Shown here: positions 14,102 through 20,843 of the stretch, piece by piece
How positions within the stretch are numbered: position 1 is the first letter of the stretch
How the letters are laid out: every line of letters begins with the position of its first letter
IMG/VR virus record: IMGVR_UViG_3300021197_000777
Span: 1-20,843 of that record
Reading direction: 5' to 3' (one strand)
Source of the DNA: a virus
DNA: 20,843 nucleotides
The notes under the pieces: model-generated
Databases searched by the model: none
What the model was told of the DNA's origin: nothing
The model's input: only the letters and a program-made list of their open reading frames with translations
Translations under genes and position numbers: made by a program

Positions 14102-15813
14102 TGATTACATTTAAAATTTTAAAGTGGAAGAATTTTCTTTCAACTGGTAATAACTGGTCTGAATTAGATTTAACTAAAAATAAGACTACTCTTGTTGTTG
14201 GATCTAATGGTGCAGGTAAGTCTACTATGCTAGACGCTTTGAGCTTTGCTTTGTTTGGTAAGGCTCATCGTAATATATCTAAACCTCAGTTAGTTAATTC
14301 TATTAATAATAAGAATTGCATTGTTGAAGTAACCTTCAGCGCATTAGGTTCAGATTTCAGAATCGTTAGAGGTATTAAACCTAACGTATTTGAAATATGG
14401 AAAGGCGAGACGATGATTAATCAATCATCTCATGCCAAAGAGTACCAGAAGATCCTCGAGCAAAACATCTTGAAGCTCAATCATAAGAGCTTTCATCAGA
14501 TTGTAGTGCTGGGCTCCTCCTCCTTCATTCCTTTCATGCAGCTAAGCGCTCAGAATCGAAGAGATGTTATCGAGGATCTTCTGGACATTAACGTATTCTC
14601 TAAGATGAATTCTTTACTAAAAGAAAAGACATCGTTATTGAAGGATCAGATCAAAGATGTTACTCATCAGCATGCCGTCACAAGCACTAAATTTGATGCT
14701 CAGAAGAAATATATTAAAGACATCAAAGCAATTAATAAAGAACAAAGGGAAGAGAAACTCAAACTCATCTCAGATTTCCAACATGAAATCAAAACTCTAC
14801 ATGGAAAGAACGAAGAGCTTAGTGATTCCATTCAATCTCAACTACCGAATGCAGATGTGGAGAGAGGACAACGCGAAGCTAAAATTAAAGAGCTTGAAGC
14901 CTATAAGACCAAATTCAACACTGAAGTCAAGAAGATCGTTAAAGAAGTCCAGTTCTTCGAGAAAAACGATATCTGTCCGACCTGTGATCAAGCCATCACT
15001 GAGGAAACAAAAGCAGCCCATATCTTGGAAGGTAAAGGCCGAGCAAAGGAACTTCAAGCGGGAATTAATAAAGCAGATGACGGACTACAACAAGCTCAAG
15101 AAGCTTTATCCTCTGCATTAAGTATTATTGATATATGTAGAGCTTATCAAAGTGATTTAGCTGCTAATAATAAATCTATAGCTCAATTTCAATCTTCTAT
15201 TGATCGTACTCAAGCAGAGATAGGTAAGTTAGATAGTAATGTTGATATGGATCAAGCTATACAAGATCTAGACGATCTTACATTTACAAGTAATAACTTA
15301 ATAGAAGAAAAGCTTGCACTTAGTGAGCAACTAAACTATAATGTCATAATGAGTACAATGCTCAAGGATACTGGTATTAAGACTAAAATTGTAAAGCAAT
15401 ATCTTCCTGTTATTAATCAGCTTTGTAATCAATATTTAAATATTTTAGACTTCTATGTTTCGTTTAATCTAGATGAATCGTTTCAAGAAACTATTAGGTC
15501 TCGATTTAGAGATAGCTTTTCATACGATTCATTCTCAGAAGGAGAGAAGCAACGTATCGATTTAGCATTGTTGTTTACTTGGCGTATGATAGCTAAGATG
15601 AAGAATAGTGTTGCAACTAATCTGTTAATATTAGATGAGACGTTTGATTCATCATTAGACCACGAAGGTGTTGATAATCTGATGAAAATCATCTATACTT
15701 TAGGAGATGAAACTAACATATACGTAATATCTCATAAAAGAGAGTTGCTTGATGATAAGTTTTCTAATAGAATAGAAGTAGTGAAAGATAAAAACTTTAG
15801 TAGGATTGTATAA
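14101..15813 (+). CDS. 46: Recombination endonuclease subunit gp46 (SbcC/Rad50-like)
   Basis: Rad50/SbcC-type ATPase, 560 residues (exactly the T4 gp46 length as I recall it). It pairs with gp47. Walker A is GSNGAGKST (residues 34-42), then the Q-loop region near FHQIVVLGSSSFIPFMQL. Long coiled-coil arms flank a zinc hook Cys-Pro-Thr-Cys (Cys292 and Cys295). The signature is SFSEGEKQRIDLAL (about 477-490), and Walker B is LLILDETFDSSLD (about 508-520). Codon use is unusual: from about 14440 to 15060 the gene uses ATC, CTC, AAG and GCC and avoids ATA, whereas both flanks are rich in TTA, ATA and GAT. This suggests a recombined central segment covering the coiled coil and hook. Confidence 0.96.
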   Translation: MITFKILKWKNFLSTGNNWSELDLTKNKTTLVVGSNGAGKSTMLDALSFALFGKAHRNISKPQLVNSINNKNCIVEVTFSALGSDFRIVRGIKPNVFEIWKGETMINQSSHAKEYQKILEQNILKLNHKSFHQIVVLGSSSFIPFMQLSAQNRRDVIEDLLDINVFSKMNSLLKEKTSLLKDQIKDVTHQHAVTSTKFDAQKKYIKDIKAINKEQREEKLKLISDFQHEIKTLHGKNEELSDSIQSQLPNADVERGQREAKIKELEAYKTKFNTEVKKIVKEVQFFEKNDICPTCDQAITEETKAAHILEGKGRAKELQAGINKADDGLQQAQEALSSALSIIDICRAYQSDLAANNKSIAQFQSSIDRTQAEIGKLDSNVDMDQAIQDLDDLTFTSNNLIEEKLALSEQLNYNVIMSTMLKDTGIKTKIVKQYLPVINQLCNQYLNILDFYVSFNLDESFQETIRSRFRDSFSYDSFSEGEKQRIDLALLFTWRMIAKMKNSVATNLLILDETFDSSLDHEGVDNLMKIIYTLGDETNIYVISHKRELLDDKFSNRIEVVKDKNFSRIV

Positions 15814-16487
15814 TGGAAATAAGTGCAGAAACAGTAAAGGTATTAACTAACTTTGCTCAGATCAATAGCAATATTGTTATTAAACCTGGTAATAAGATTA
15901 TGACTATATCAGAAGCTAAGAATATTTTAGCTGAAGCGGTAGTGCAGGAAGAGTTTGATTCGAGTATAGGTATATATGACTTGCAAGAGTTTTTAAGTGT
16001 ACTTAACTTAGTAGATACTCCTTCGGTTAAGTTTGACTCTAGCTATATGAGGATAGGAGGTAATGCTGGTCGATCTATTGTAAAGTATTTTTATGCAGAT
16101 CCAGAGATGTTAACTACTCCTTCTAAACCTATTGATATGCCTGAAGCAGACGTTTGGTTTACTTTAGATCAGACTACTCTATCTGGAATTAAGAAAGCAT
16201 CTTCTATCTTTGGTCATAGTCAAGTAATAGTTGAACCAGATGATAATACTATTAAACTATCAGTAGTAGATGCAGAGAATGCTACAGCTAATACTTATTC
16301 TGTGACAGTAGATGGAGGATATAACTCACCTGATTTTAAATATGTACTAAATATTAACAACCTGCGTATGGTCAATGATGACTACGAGGTTAACATTTCT
16401 AAAAAATTAATATCACAATTTACAAGTGTCAATAGCAGTATTACTTACTGGGTTGCGCTTGAAAAGTCATCAACATATGGAGAATAA
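15813..16487 (+). CDS. 45: DNA polymerase sliding clamp gp45
   Basis: Sliding clamp, 224 residues (T4 gp45 is 228). The trimer encircles DNA, holds the phage polymerase on the template and activates late transcription with gp55. Matching landmarks are the N-terminal helix and strand (VKVLTNFAQINSNIVIKPGNKIMT), AVVQEEFDSSIGIYDLQEFLSVLNLVD, DVWFTLDQTTLSGIKKASSIFG (the second-domain helix), FKYVLNINNLRMVNDDYEVNIS and the final ITYWVALEKSSTYGE, which parallels the T4 ending in VVALEADSTHDF. The start shares one base with the gp46 stop. GGAG near the end of the gene serves as the RBS of the next small gene. Confidence 0.95.
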   Translation: MEISAETVKVLTNFAQINSNIVIKPGNKIMTISEAKNILAEAVVQEEFDSSIGIYDLQEFLSVLNLVDTPSVKFDSSYMRIGGNAGRSIVKYFYADPEMLTTPSKPIDMPEADVWFTLDQTTLSGIKKASSIFGHSQVIVEPDDNTIKLSVVDAENATANTYSVTVDGGYNSPDFKYVLNINNLRMVNDDYEVNISKKLISQFTSVNSSITYWVALEKSSTYGE

Positions 16488-16488
16488 A

Positions 16489-16716
16489 ATGGCTAAAGAA
16501 GACGAATTGAAACTCGCGCATGAATCACATGCTCCTGTATACGACCTATCTAATAGAGTATGTCGTTCAACAGTTGCGGTGATTGATACTATGGTGCAAC
16601 GAGGAGCAGTTAAAGGTGAAGAATTATCTACTCTAGGTCAATTACGAGATCAAGCTGTACAGCTAATTCAAATGTCAGAAACTTATCAGCAAGATATGGC
16701 TGCTGAATCCGAATAA
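16489..16716 (+). CDS. Small helical protein between clamp and clamp loader, unknown
   Basis: A 75-residue, mostly helical, acidic protein (MAKEDELKLAHESHAPVYDL...). I do not recognise it. Helices are likely at residues 18-36 (SNRVCRSTVAVIDTMVQRG) and 43-66 (EELSTLGQLRDQAVQLIQMSETY). I placed the start at 16489 because GGAG at 16479-16482 lies six bases upstream, and the reading frame further upstream overlaps gp45. In T4 the small genes rpbA and 45.2 lie beside 45 on the gene 46 side; this product has about half the length of RpbA and no visible similarity. It sits one base after the gp45 stop and 16 bases before gp44, so it is in the same operon. Confidence 0.75.
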   Translation: MAKEDELKLAHESHAPVYDLSNRVCRSTVAVIDTMVQRGAVKGEELSTLGQLRDQAVQLIQMSETYQQDMAAESE

Positions 16717-16732
16717 GGATACTATTTATATT

Positions 16733-17671
16733 ATGAGCAATGATTTTCTTTGGGTTGAGAAATATCGTCCTACTAAGATATCTGAAACTATATTACCTCC
16801 TGCGTTAAAGCAAACGTTTCAGAGTATGGTAGATGCTGGAGAATTGCAGAATATGCTCTTCTCTGGCACTGCCGGTTTAGGTAAAACTACTATAGCAAAA
16901 GCCCTATGCAACGAGCTGGGGCTTGATTATATTTTAATTAACGGATCTGAAGAAGGTAATATAGATACATTACGAGGTAAGATAAAGCAATTTGCTTCAT
17001 CAGTATCTTTATCAGGAGGAGTAAAGGTTTGTATTCTTGATGAAGCAGACTACTTGAACCCTCAAAGCACTCAACCTGCTTTGCGAGGATTTATTGAAGA
17101 GTTTGCTAATAACTGTCGCTTTATTCTTACCTGTAACTTTAAGAATAGAATTATTGAACCTTTACATTCTCGATGTGGAGTTTATGAGTTCAATACTACT
17201 AAGAAAGACTTAGCTGAATTAGCTGCTCAATTTTATAAACGTATGTCCTTTGTATTAGATGAAGAAGGTATATCATACGATAATAAAAACGTTGCAGATC
17301 TTATTATGAAGCATGCTCCAGACTGGAGGAGAGTAATCAATGAAGCTCAACGAAGATCAATCAGTGACTTTAATAGTGTCGGTAGTGGTGTTGGTAGTAT
17401 TGACAGCACTATTAACCAGTTAGTAGAACATCTAAAGACGAAGAACTTTAAGAAGATGCGTTCATGGGTTGTAAACCATATGGATGTAGATACTAATGCT
17501 ATCTTTCGTGGGCTATATGACAATATGAATGAGTATGTAGACTCTGGAAGTATACCTCAACTTGTTCTTATATTAGCAGACTATCAATATAAAGATGCAT
17601 TCGTGGCTGATCATGAGCTAAATATTGTAGCATGCATGACAGAGATAATGGCACAGGTCAATTTTAAATGA
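16733..17671 (+). CDS. 44: Clamp loader ATPase subunit gp44
   Basis: AAA+ clamp loader subunit, 312 residues (T4 gp44 is 319). With gp62 it opens and loads the gp45 ring. The N-terminus WVEKYRPTKISETILPP is the standard clamp-loader start. Walker A is GTAGLGKT (residues 45-52), Walker B is ILDEAD (101-106), the sensor 1 region is FILTCNF (about 130-136), and the arginine-finger motif is SRC (146-148). The C-terminal collar helices end MAQVNFK, comparable to LACEMQWK in T4. AAGGA at 16714-16718 is rather far from the ATG. In T4 gene 62 follows directly. Here its place is taken by a halogenase gene that overlaps the gp44 stop by ATGA. Confidence 0.95.
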   Translation: MSNDFLWVEKYRPTKISETILPPALKQTFQSMVDAGELQNMLFSGTAGLGKTTIAKALCNELGLDYILINGSEEGNIDTLRGKIKQFASSVSLSGGVKVCILDEADYLNPQSTQPALRGFIEEFANNCRFILTCNFKNRIIEPLHSRCGVYEFNTTKKDLAELAAQFYKRMSFVLDEEGISYDNKNVADLIMKHAPDWRRVINEAQRRSISDFNSVGSGVGSIDSTINQLVEHLKTKNFKKMRSWVVNHMDVDTNAIFRGLYDNMNEYVDSGSIPQLVLILADYQYKDAFVADHELNIVACMTEIMAQVNFK

Positions 17672-19350
17672 AAACACAAGTAAAGAATATTACTATTTTA
17701 GGTGGTGGTGTAATTGGATGGTTTACAGCTGCATACTTAGCTAAGTTTCATAAAAATATAAAAATTACTCTTATTGAATCTCCTTATGTTCCTATTCTAG
17801 GAGTGGGAGAGTCTACGATTCCTCAACTTGGAGATCTACTTAAATGGTTAGAAGTAGATGAACATCAGTGGATGAAAGGTGTGCACGGTCTTCACAAATT
17901 TGGTAATATGTTTAGTGCATGGAATACTGAAGATCCAAAAGTAAGAGCTGTTGACCATTGGAATACTCCTAAACATCACAGACAGTTCTATACTTTTAAT
18001 CTTACATTTAGGGATAATGTATTTAAAAAGAGTTTCTATAATCCATTAAAAATGGATGATTTTTTCTATGACAATGATGGTCGATACGGCATTGATAATA
18101 AAAGTGTGGACTATTGGTTAGAGTTAGTACGACAAGGTAAATATAAGTGGTATGAGTGGGGGGAGTACACTTCAGATCAATATAACCTAGCTATTAATAA
18201 CAAATCTGTATATGATGATGAAAATGATATTCTAATTGGTGATTGGCATGGATATGCTTGGCATGTTGATGCTGAGCGTTTTCCTTTAGTCGTAAGAGAT
18301 CAAGTTGCTCTTCCTTTAGGTGTGGAATGGATTGAAGGTCATGTTGAGCATATTGCTAAGCGTGAAGATGGTTACATCGATTATCTACAATTAGAAGATG
18401 GAAGACAATTTAAAGGAGATCTATTTTTAGATTGTACTGGGTTTAATAGAGTGCTTATGAAACAAATGGAGAATGAATGGTTCTCTATGAGTGACAGACT
18501 TCCTACTCAAAGTGCATGGGTTGCTCCTATTAAGTATAATGATCCCTATACAGAAATGAAACCATACACTCAATCATATGCTCAAGCTAATGGTTGGAAC
18601 TTTATTATTACTTTGTATAGTCGTATGGGTTCAGGATACATCTTTGACGAGCGCTCAGAAGATAAAGACTCTGCAAGAGAAAGGTTTATTCGTTATTGGG
18701 ATACCCATGAGATGATTAGAGACCCTAAACTACTTCAATGGGAGCAAGGTTACTATAAAGATGCTTGGGTAAAGAATGTAGTGGGTATTGGTATGGGACA
18801 AGGTTTTGTAGATCCAATGGAAGCTAACTCTATCTACGTTGCGCAAAGTTGTATTCAGATGCTAAGTCAAGCCCTGAATAAATATGATAACAGAGAAATA
18901 TCTCACTTTACTAAGAAAGCATTCTCTCGACATATTCAAAAGCTAGAAAATCAGATCTGTGATTTTATTGCATACCATTTTACAATTAGTAAGCGTAGAG
19001 ATAATCCTTTATGGCAGACATGGGGAGAGAAAGGATTACAAAGAAATCATATTGAGAAAAACTGGCAAGAGTACCGCGCGCCAAAAGGCTATCTAGGAAG
19101 AAATCTTTATCTAGATTATCAGTGGGCTCAGCAGCATCATTTCTTAGATAGATGGGATGAAGACTTGTGTAAAATAAATATTGATCCTAAAAAGCTCAAA
19201 CTAGCAGAAGTAACATTTAATTATATAAAAGAGAAGAGTCAAGCATTATCTGAATATGCTCCTCATGTATATGATTGGACTAGAGAAAAACTACATGATG
19301 GAGCAACTCACGATGAAATTTTACAACAGGCATTAGCGGAAAGAAAATGA
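17668..19350 (+). CDS. Flavin-dependent tryptophan-halogenase-like protein
   Basis: A 560-residue member of the flavin-dependent halogenase family. Family members use FADH2, oxygen and halide to form hypohalous acid, which a Lys delivers to an aromatic substrate. Visible features are the FAD-binding GGGVIGW (residues 12-18), GVGESTIPQL (45-54), a Lys77 that plausibly aligns with catalytic Lys79 of PrnA, LDCTGFNRVL (254-263), GSGYIFD (321-327), and GQGFVDPMEANSIY (377-390), with Glu385 at the place of the PrnA catalytic Glu. The hallmark WxWxIP motif is altered to WNFIIT (310-315). No flavin reductase is seen in the window. A viral halogenase (VirX1) is known from a marine cyanophage. The start overlaps the gp44 stop and the end overlaps the next gene, both by ATGA. 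The substrate is unknown. Confidence 0.88.
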   Translation: MKTQVKNITILGGGVIGWFTAAYLAKFHKNIKITLIESPYVPILGVGESTIPQLGDLLKWLEVDEHQWMKGVHGLHKFGNMFSAWNTEDPKVRAVDHWNTPKHHRQFYTFNLTFRDNVFKKSFYNPLKMDDFFYDNDGRYGIDNKSVDYWLELVRQGKYKWYEWGEYTSDQYNLAINNKSVYDDENDILIGDWHGYAWHVDAERFPLVVRDQVALPLGVEWIEGHVEHIAKREDGYIDYLQLEDGRQFKGDLFLDCTGFNRVLMKQMENEWFSMSDRLPTQSAWVAPIKYNDPYTEMKPYTQSYAQANGWNFIITLYSRMGSGYIFDERSEDKDSARERFIRYWDTHEMIRDPKLLQWEQGYYKDAWVKNVVGIGMGQGFVDPMEANSIYVAQSCIQMLSQALNKYDNREISHFTKKAFSRHIQKLENQICDFIAYHFTISKRRDNPLWQTWGEKGLQRNHIEKNWQEYRAPKGYLGRNLYLDYQWAQQHHFLDRWDEDLCKINIDPKKLKLAEVTFNYIKEKSQALSEYAPHVYDWTREKLHDGATHDEILQQALAERK

Positions 19351-20315
19351 TTTATATTGATGGTGTTGAGTACCTTGAAAGTGATAATGATTATATTAGA
19401 AGTGCAGTTATTGATCGACTTGAAGATAGAAATGTTTCAGTAAATACAAGTGGGACTACAGGTCATCCTAAACCAGTTAATCACACAGCAGACTCTGTAA
19501 CAAAAATTAGTGATTATAATACAGAATTTTTTAAGCTAACTTCTAGTAGTACTATGTTACAGTTATACAGTCCTAGAGGTATAGCTTTTACTACTATGAG
19601 TTTATATCCCAGTTTAAATGCTGGGTGTGATCTTTTTATAGAAACTAATATAAACAGATACATTGAACGTATGAATGAGATAAAACCTACTCATACTTTA
19701 GTTCTGCCTTCGCTATATAATACTTACAGTAAACATCCTAAATGGAATACCTTAGACCTCTCTAATTGCGAACAAGTATTAATTGGTAGTGATTTTACCC
19801 CTGTTGATGCATTAACAGATCTAAGAATGTTAGGAGCTAAGACTGCGTATAGTGTTTATGGCAGTACAGAAACTCCTCCAATTATTGCTTACACAGAATC
19901 AGATAATCATTATACTTGGGAAGGTATAAATCCTAATGTTGATCTAAAGATTGAAGCTGAGCAGCTATATGTTAAGTGGAAGCATCAAGATGAGTGGTGG
20001 CGGAGCGGAGACTTAGTAGAAGAAACACCTAGAGGATTTAACCTAGTAGGTCGTAAATTAAATATGTTTAAACTTGGTGAATGTGGGGTTAGAGTTTATC
20101 CAGAGCAAGTAGAGAAGATTGCCATTGCTTTAGGAGCTACAAGAGCTCTTTGTAGAAAGGTTAATGAAAAATGTTATGTATATGTTACTGGGGATGTAAA
20201 CAGTAAAGATTTAATCAAGAACTTTACATTTGACATTGTAGTAAAAGAAGTTGAAAACATTGAAGTAGATAATAACTTGAGAAAAGTAAAACGAGACCAA
20301 TGTATGAAAGAATAA
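19347..20315 (+). CDS. Compact ANL-family adenylate-forming enzyme
   Basis: A 322-residue enzyme of the acyl/aryl-CoA synthetase, NRPS adenylation and luciferase superfamily. These enzymes activate a carboxylic acid as an acyl-adenylate and usually pass it to a thiol. Core motifs in order are A3 TSGTTGHPK (residues 34-42), A5 YGSTE (171-175), A7 SGDL (220-223), the hinge and A8 GRKLNMFKLGECGVRVYPEQVE (235-256), and an A10-like LRKVKR (311-316) with Lys313 as the likely catalytic Lys. Family members are usually 500 or more residues with A3 near residue 150-190, so about 120-150 N-terminal residues are absent. It overlaps the halogenase by ATGA and probably acts in the same pathway. No carrier protein is seen. 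The substrate cannot be read from the sequence. Confidence 0.87.
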   Translation: MIYIDGVEYLESDNDYIRSAVIDRLEDRNVSVNTSGTTGHPKPVNHTADSVTKISDYNTEFFKLTSSSTMLQLYSPRGIAFTTMSLYPSLNAGCDLFIETNINRYIERMNEIKPTHTLVLPSLYNTYSKHPKWNTLDLSNCEQVLIGSDFTPVDALTDLRMLGAKTAYSVYGSTETPPIIAYTESDNHYTWEGINPNVDLKIEAEQLYVKWKHQDEWWRSGDLVEETPRGFNLVGRKLNMFKLGECGVRVYPEQVEKIAIALGATRALCRKVNEKCYVYVTGDVNSKDLIKNFTFDIVVKEVENIEVDNNLRKVKRDQCMKE

Positions 20316-20843
20316 AAACAGATTTAGAAGATTGGGATTTATATATTACAGATAATCCTACCAATTTTTATGTGCAAAGCTTTATAGAAAAGGTTTCACA
20401 AGAACAATCTCTGTTAACAAGACTTACTGATGATCCTTACACTTATGATAGGTTAATTAGGTTCAATCGTAAGTTTAATATATTATGGCTATATAAAGGC
20501 AATCCTGTTTACGGTTTCTTTGCTGTTCAGTATGATAAGCTTCCCTCTAATATAATTAGAATGTATACCAGATTATATAAATTAAATAGAAAAGAAAATT
20601 TATTCTCTCGTGAGTTTCTATTTAATGAGAATAAAACATATTCTATATATTTAAAAAGATTGTTTCATGCACATAAAATTGATACTATCTTCTTTACCAG
20701 GCATACAGCAACCACTACTAATGACATAAATAAATGGAAAAGCTCTAAACGTAATAAACAGTTTATGAATCTCGATATTAAATATGCTGACAACATACGA
20801 TTTAGAGGTGTAGATCAAACCATTTATTACTATAACGCTTGGC
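20300..20843 (+). CDS. Unknown protein, third gene of the halogenase cassette (partial)
   Basis: An open frame of 181 codons that runs off the window end. It starts at ATG 20300 inside the last 16 bases of the ANL gene. I do not recognise it firmly. It is rich in Tyr, Arg, Lys, Phe and Asn, with WLYKGNPVYGFFAVQYDKLPSN near residues 64-85 and YLKRLFHAHKIDTIFFTRHTATT near 119-141. The strand-turn-strand character, with a later Arg- and His-rich stretch, is loosely like phage GNAT-type acyltransferases, but no acetyl-CoA-binding motif (R/Q-x-x-G-x-G/A) is visible. A second ATG at 20304 is out of frame. The overlap suggests translation coupled to the ANL enzyme. Coding potential is supported by length and by codon use like the neighbours. 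Confidence 0.75.
   Translation, partial: MYERIKTDLEDWDLYITDNPTNFYVQSFIEKVSQEQSLLTRLTDDPYTYDRLIRFNRKFNILWLYKGNPVYGFFAVQYDKLPSNIIRMYTRLYKLNRKENLFSREFLFNENKTYSIYLKRLFHAHKIDTIFFTRHTATTTNDINKWKSSKRNKQFMNLDIKYADNIRFRGVDQTIYYYNAW

Follow-up and report, generated by a model that had tools for sequence, protein, structure and literature searches.

A halogenase-like flavoenzyme, a compact adenylate-forming enzyme and a predicted GNAT-fold protein encoded together among the replication genes of marine phages

A three-gene cassette and its proposed function

We analyzed a viral DNA of 20,843 bases, the whole of IMG/VR record IMGVR_UViG_3300021197_000777 (hereafter "the window"), which was extended only through related contigs. 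At its 3′ end, the replication operon of a T4-like phage carries three overlapping genes, namely HAL, encoding a halogenase-like flavoenzyme; ANL, encoding a compact adenylate-forming enzyme; and open reading frame 3 (ORF3), encoding a predicted GNAT-fold protein. The three genes form a cassette inserted between the clamp-loader genes gp44 and gp62, and HAL and ANL recur together in other marine phages. We tentatively propose that the cassette constitutes a carrier-free pathway of acyl activation and transfer, with oxidative or halogenating tailoring, in lytic-type marine phages.

Position and integrity of the cassette

Reading of the junction sequences confirmed the gene order and overlaps given in a preliminary description of this DNA. 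Gene gp44 overlaps HAL by 4 bases (ATGA, 17668), HAL overlaps ANL by 4 bases (ATGA, 19347), and ANL overlaps ORF3 by 16 bases (20300). The related contig L004 is 97.7% identical to the window over 7.4 kb and continues beyond the window end. It holds a complete copy of ORF3 (198 amino acids, L004:6875-7471), followed by genes for a fatty-acid desaturase (PF00487, 2.7e-11), a 194-amino-acid protein, glutaredoxin (PF00462), gp62 (PF16790), and regA (PF01818, 5.5e-43). We placed the cassette between gp44 and gp62 because L004 shows gp62 and regA after the ORF3 run; both genes also lie downstream of the cassette in L003. The 194-amino-acid protein has no Pfam match and, by its pattern of His/Asp and Arg residues as read by eye, resembles the 2-oxoglutarate (2OG) oxygenases, of which it is probably one. 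The closest cultured relative is phage C48C1, at 67% in both gp44 and gp23, in which gp44, gp62, and regA are consecutive and the gp44-gp62 gap is empty. Close relatives that have been isolated also include Pelagibacter phage HTVC008M and the Methylophilales phages Melnitz.

The preliminary description had allowed that the contig might be chimeric at 17668. The gp44-HAL junction is crossed at 98% identity by L004 and L019 and at 88% by L003 and L104; the HAL-ANL junction is crossed by L004 and L019 at 94.5%, and the ANL-ORF3 junction by L002, L003, and L004 at 96%. Because these contigs carry IMG sample numbers other than that of the window, a chimera at this position can be dismissed with near certainty.

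We estimated the ratio of nonsynonymous to synonymous substitution (dN/dS) by the Nei-Gojobori method, using close pairs only. Values were 0.025-0.17 for HAL, 0.05-0.09 for ANL, and 0.07 for ORF3, with 0.037 for gp44 as a comparison. Therefore, the cassette genes are under purifying selection comparable to that on gp44.

Recurrence in other phages

ANL was found in 64 distinct IMG/VR contigs from several genome backgrounds, with HAL as its direct neighbor in 39 of them, so that the two genes co-occur strongly, contrary to the possibility raised earlier that they never do. In the gp44-gp62 slot of T4-like phages the order is HAL-ANL-ORF3, usually followed by a desaturase and/or glutaredoxin gene. 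L021 and L022 have HAL-ANL-DUF6356 on a different backbone. L009-L016 and their relatives, without HAL, have a tail-like gene, then DUF6356 in some, then ANL-GNAT-radical SAM; L055, L136, and L137 share the L009-L016 type of backbone and carry ANL-HAL-GNAT. The order GNAT-ANL-HAL is found in L025, L053, and L054, GNAT-HAL with no compact ANL next to it in L148, and ANL-HAL-GNAT-ketoacyl synthase-desaturase, with a full-length ANL, in L108. The 4-base overlap of HAL and ANL is present in most T4-slot copies and also where the gene order is reversed. That HAL, ANL, and GNAT genes recur in different orders and on different backbones argues for a functional link and not for a shared neighborhood alone. 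The recurrent HAL-ANL pairing, with gp62 and regA downstream, bears out the earlier claim of a coupled cassette within the replication operon.

An alternative is that the cassette consists of transient cargo genes (morons) that hardly work together, if at all, and that stay side by side because the gp44-gp62 gap tolerates insertions. The emptiness of the gap in C48C1, the variable extra genes (172-280 amino acids) of relatives, and the independent swapping of HAL alleles (see below) are what such cargo would look like. However, these partners are also found together away from the gp44-gp62 gap, in different phage backgrounds and gene orders, and the genes show purifying selection and coupled 4-base overlaps. 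We therefore regard the cargo explanation as very improbable.

The features at the 3′ end of the window are listed in Table 1. For the small ORF between gp45 and gp44, the GTG start was assigned mechanically, and the real start is probably later. In relatives, varied proteins of 172-280 amino acids are inserted around gp45-gp44-HAL (L013:4125-4652, L005:4823-5341, L083:1571-2212), several of which look like 2OG oxygenases by eye. DUF6356 (PF19883), a small hydrophobic protein, lies beside ANL on several backbones (L016:3860-4111, L021:12688-12954, L055:7605-7823).

Table 1. Coordinates of the cassette genes and their upstream neighbors in the window
Feature	Position	Strand	Evidence and remarks
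HAL, PF04820 flavoenzyme, halogenase-like, 560 amino acids	17668..19350	+	PF04820, E 5.8e-86
ANL, compact adenylate-forming enzyme, 322 amino acids	19347..20315	+	PF00501, E 2.7e-18
ORF3, predicted GNAT-fold, acyltransferase-like	20300..20843	+	Predicted structure; open at contig end
gp44, clamp loader large subunit	16733..17671	+	phrog_168, E 2e-110; upstream border of cassette
Small conserved ORF in gp45-gp44 gap	16426..16716	+	75-100% identity in every T4-slot relative where visible; context
gp45, sliding clamp	15813..16487	+	phrog_223, E 7e-74; PF09116; context

ANL is a shortened adenylate-forming enzyme

ANL covers only positions 170-355 of the 384 in the PF00501 profile. Compared with a normal ANL enzyme, some 110-135 residues are missing at the N terminus, and the N-terminal domain is incomplete. 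Its P-loop, SGTTGHPK, occupies residues 35-42 (nt 19449-19472); the loop lies at about residue 34-35 in ANL, as against positions of about 130-145 in the full-length ANL of L108. An A10-type lysine, Lys313, is encoded at nt 20283-20285. Across 25 ANL copies, the P-loop, YGxTE, SGD, the GR...K hinge, and the C-terminal Lys show little or no variation.

The AlphaFold model of ANL has a predicted local distance difference test (pLDDT) score of 87. It matches MenE and feruloyl-CoA synthetase with a Z score of ~20 over ~304 residues and a root mean square deviation of 6.9-7.8 Å, a high value that is as expected for two hinged domains. Chlorobenzoyl-CoA ligase is also matched, and the three kinds of ligase together span Z scores of 19-20. 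In sequence, the best PDB match of the ANL profile is the coronafacic acid ligase Cfl (E 2e-9), with FadD8 close behind. A canonical α-amino acid as the substrate is weakly disfavored by a reading of the pocket: the residue that we take to be equivalent to Asp235 of GrsA, from a hand alignment, seems to be Ala, which is a weak argument.

Three related contigs carry 215-amino-acid variants of ANL (L015:38-685, L060:2910-3557, and L061) without the P-loop and the C-terminal domain. Where their surroundings are visible, these variants still adjoin ORF3 and/or HAL. ANL has no match among 50,697 phage records. No cellular relatives of ANL or HAL were found in two alignment-based scans of genome contigs, which used few short patterns and do not prove absence.

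HAL belongs to a distinct halogenase-like clade

HAL has the FAD-binding GxGxxG motif (GGGVIGW, residues 12-18) and can be aligned to Thal, RebH, and PrnA; in this alignment, Lys77 (nt 17896-17898) and Glu385 (nt 18820-18822) occupy the catalytic positions. Both catalytic residues are retained across ANL-linked HAL copies. Two other motifs are altered. WxWxIP is absent from HAL, which has GWxFxI instead (GWNFII, within GWNFIIT), and all aligned ANL-linked copies have Phe in place of the second Trp; some active flavin-dependent halogenases also do without WxWxIP (PMC8407142). The tunnel motif FxxPxxSxG, reported for active flavin-dependent halogenases (PMC8407142), is likewise absent from HAL, which reads FVDPMEANS, with Ser changed to Ala and Gly to Ser. 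In ANL-linked HALs the motif is FxxPMEAN and then Ser, Ala, or, in two copies, Val, as against FxxPLE[S/A/G]x[G/S]. Finally, the Trp4 substrate-binding motif (PMC8269204) is absent from HAL, and the stretch YHFTISKRRDNPLW fails to fit it. Since the ANL-linked HALs share these altered WxWxIP and FxxPxxSxG motifs, we call the protein halogenase-like; halogenation itself is uncertain, and hydroxylation is possible. The identification as a halogenase in the preliminary description therefore stands as to the PF04820 family and the catalytic Lys and Glu, but not as to the two motifs, which are missing throughout the ANL-linked clade.

We also built a maximum likelihood tree of 34 phage proteins, rooted at the midpoint and without bacterial sequences. 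A 100/100 branch divides the tree: every ANL-linked HAL, down to 26% identity, lies to one side of it, and VirX1 (L154, confirmed against PDB 6qgm) and all tested cultured-phage copies lie to the other. HAL additionally has weak NCBIfam matches to GoxB and LodB, which are protein-modifying flavoenzymes (E 9e-5).

In one version of the acyl pathway, HAL would truly halogenate a free aromatic metabolite, as VirX1 does in vitro, and, paired with ANL and the GNAT-like protein, would yield a halogenated acyl signal or toxin. The strong PF04820 match is consistent with this version, as are Lys77 and Glu385 at the catalytic positions of the alignment to Thal, RebH, and PrnA, and seawater is rich in halide. 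The replacement of both WxWxIP and FxxPxxSxG in nearly all ANL-linked copies (by GWxFxI and FxxPMEAN[SA]), the missing Trp4 motif, and the branch that separates HAL from VirX1 point the other way, and we consider this version rather unlikely.

HAL alleles have also moved on their own. We compared window positions 17668-19350 with L003:4514-6190. Up to gp44, L003 and the window agree at ~99% identity; nucleotide identity then falls to ~62-73% in HAL and is back at 92-99% in ANL and ORF3, an allele exchange restricted to the HAL gene between the window phage and L003. L005 has the opposite pattern, with HAL at 90% and gp44 at 77%.

ORF3 and the GNAT-like partners of ANL

The ORF3 product encoded in the window has no match in Pfam, PHROGs, or NCBIfam. 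The AlphaFold model of the full-length copy from L004 (pLDDT 84, predicted template modeling score 0.82) has GNAT topology, and its top structural matches are GNAT proteins. A GNAT fold is thus well supported by the model for a gene previously described as unrecognized. The top VIA match is LasI, an acyl-homoserine lactone synthase (Z score 10.0 over 157 residues, 4.1 Å), and BjaI, RpaI, MesI, and FeeM follow at Z scores of 8.3-8.7 among many ordinary GNATs. We treat the predicted likeness to LuxI-type synthases and FeeM as a lead. The canonical acetyl-CoA loop, Q/RxxGxG/A, is not among the conserved columns of alignment A7.

On other backbones, ANL is paired with small proteins of another family, which gives weak GNAT (3t9y, E 0.045) and FeeM (Pfam, E 0.035) signals and holds the same position beside ANL as ORF3. 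In the T4-slot contig L038, the place of ORF3 is taken by a 194-amino-acid GNAT-class protein that matches the L108 member of the other GNAT-like family by BLASTP (E 4e-6) and the profile of that family weakly. Neither ORF3 nor this other family has a match in cultured phage records (50,697 phage records for ORF3).

Tailoring genes and possible targets

Further enzyme genes accompany the ANL and GNAT genes in several contigs. L108 (contig 3300020182_001262; 4601-10082) encodes a ketoacyl synthase (PF00109, 9e-25; PF02801, 1e-24) and a desaturase whose match is below the cut-off. This gene set appears to indicate acyl-chain chemistry, and its arrangement is possibly close to the ancestral one. 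No other ketosynthase was found in the related contigs. Contigs G013 and G015 each have a second GNAT and ANL cluster in addition to the ANL/GNAT genes (L161, L162). L161:2910-10636 (3300017914_002709) encodes a GNAT-like protein, a full-length ANL, a sulfotransferase (3e-39), a thiolase-like protein, a nitroreductase, a radical SAM protein, and oxygenase-like proteins. L162:5158-7682 (3300031974_003900) encodes a radical SAM protein, a P450 (6e-15), a GNAT-like protein, and a 255-amino-acid ANL without the C-terminal domain. These clusters suggest a recurrent ANL and GNAT core with exchangeable tailoring enzymes.

The main rival to the acyl pathway is the modification of DNA or protein. The GNAT-like protein would put an acyl or aromatic group on phage DNA, a tail protein, or a host protein, and the flavoenzyme would oxidize this group or the target residue. 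The GNAT-fold DNA modifier Mom of phage Mu is among the Foldseek matches of ORF3 (E 6.6e-5), the cassette sits in a replication operon, the ANL/GNAT pair elsewhere adjoins a tail-fiber-like gene and radical SAM genes, and the weak GoxB and LodB matches of HAL would fit as well. Mom, however, is just one of many GNATs matched, and the ketosynthase, desaturase, P450, and sulfotransferase neighbors indicate small-molecule or acyl-chain chemistry. On balance, we think modification of a macromolecule unlikely.

A possible carrier-free acyl pathway

From the gene content and order, conservation, selection, predicted folds, and conserved catalytic residues described above, we infer candidate substrates, an order of steps, a product, and the timing and benefit of the proposed acyl pathway. 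ANL would use ATP to adenylate a carboxylic acid, aryl or fatty and not a canonical α-amino acid. As searches turned up no carrier protein, the enzyme would hand the acyl group to coenzyme A (CoA), to the acyl carrier protein of the host, or straight to the acceptor. ORF3 would then place the acyl group on an amine, giving an N-acyl compound or an acyl tag. HAL may halogenate or hydroxylate an aromatic part, with FADH2 supplied by a host reductase, and the desaturase, the probable 2OG oxygenase, and glutaredoxin may contribute further tailoring or supporting functions. Translated together with the clamp-loader genes, the cassette would be switched on while phage DNA replicates; its operon position suggests early expression.

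Several observations weigh against this proposal. Past position 20843, where the preliminary description had advised looking for gp62, regA, further enzymes, and a carrier protein, the relatives supplied all but the last; a search of 11 related contigs, possibly incomplete, yielded no acyl carrier protein (PF00550), and one of 15 contigs no flavin reductase. The pathway would therefore need CoA, acyl carrier protein, and reductase from the host. The lack of WxWxIP and of the tunnel motif in HAL counts against a halogenating step. Catalysis by ANL is probably lost in L015, L060, and L061, judging from the missing segments, and thus is not required in all relatives. For ORF3, LasI scores only slightly above the generic GNAT YhbS (Z scores of 10.0 and 9.4), a near tie of LasI and FeeM with generic GNATs, and sequence profiles found no PDB relative. 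A profile-profile comparison of ORF3 with the other GNAT-like family gave no significant link.

More speculatively than the pathway itself, marine phages may own a carrier-free system in which a compact ANL and a GNAT-like protein work with an exchangeable flavoenzyme, desaturase, P450, sulfotransferase, or ketosynthase. Such a system could make a phage-specific N-acyl metabolite in lytic infection, possibly a LuxI- or FeeM-like signal, an antibiotic, or an acyl tag.

Comparison with known systems

Searches of the open-access literature turned up no account of this cassette. Single halogenases are known from viruses, but a biological role has yet to be assigned to them. In several marine phage lineages, a halogenase-like clade is now linked with two other classes of enzyme, which offers a testable pathway of acid activation, transfer, and oxidation or halogenation. 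If this is true, lytic marine phages would make dedicated metabolites or acyl tags, and competition between phage and host, as well as among phages, would gain a further layer. The compact ANL, from which roughly one quarter of an ordinary enzyme of this kind is missing, is of enzymological interest in itself.

HAL is like VirX1 of cyanophage Syn10 (PDB 6qgm) and the PrnA-like cyanophage halogenases in its PF04820 family, its occurrence in T4-like marine phages, and its catalytic Lys and Glu. It differs from VirX1 and the cultured-phage halogenases by identities below 34%, by its place across the 100/100 branch, and by its WxWxIP and FxxPxxSxG motifs. The preliminary description held a halogenase-ANL pair next to a clamp loader to be unexpected. 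A halogenase that overlaps a replication gene has a precedent: in cyanophage S-B64, one in the gp47-46-45-44 region overlaps gp46 by 4 bases. The new element is the partnership with ANL and GNAT genes.

Cfl (PDB 7a9i/7a9j), MenE, feruloyl-CoA synthetase, and FadD8 share with ANL the fold and the motifs from the P-loop to the C-terminal Lys. Unlike these ligases, the phage enzyme has 322 amino acids, with the N-terminal ~110-135 residues gone, and was found here solely in viral contigs. An amine is the acceptor of the activated acyl group in FeeM and LuxI systems. The LuxI-type synthases LasI, BjaI, and RpaI, and FeeM, resemble the predicted fold of ORF3 (Z scores of 8.3-10.0), but with 4-12% structural identity, no match at the sequence level, and nearly equal scores for other GNATs, the likeness is a lead and not membership.

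Reported phage-encoded biosynthetic clusters are rare and are mostly bacteriocin clusters in temperate phages, and antiSMASH detected zero clusters in 153 cyanophages (PMC10452541). The reported clusters and the cassette described here are both secondary-metabolism-like; the cassette, in contrast, combines a flavoenzyme, an ANL enzyme, and a GNAT-like protein in uncultured marine phages, including T4-like ones.

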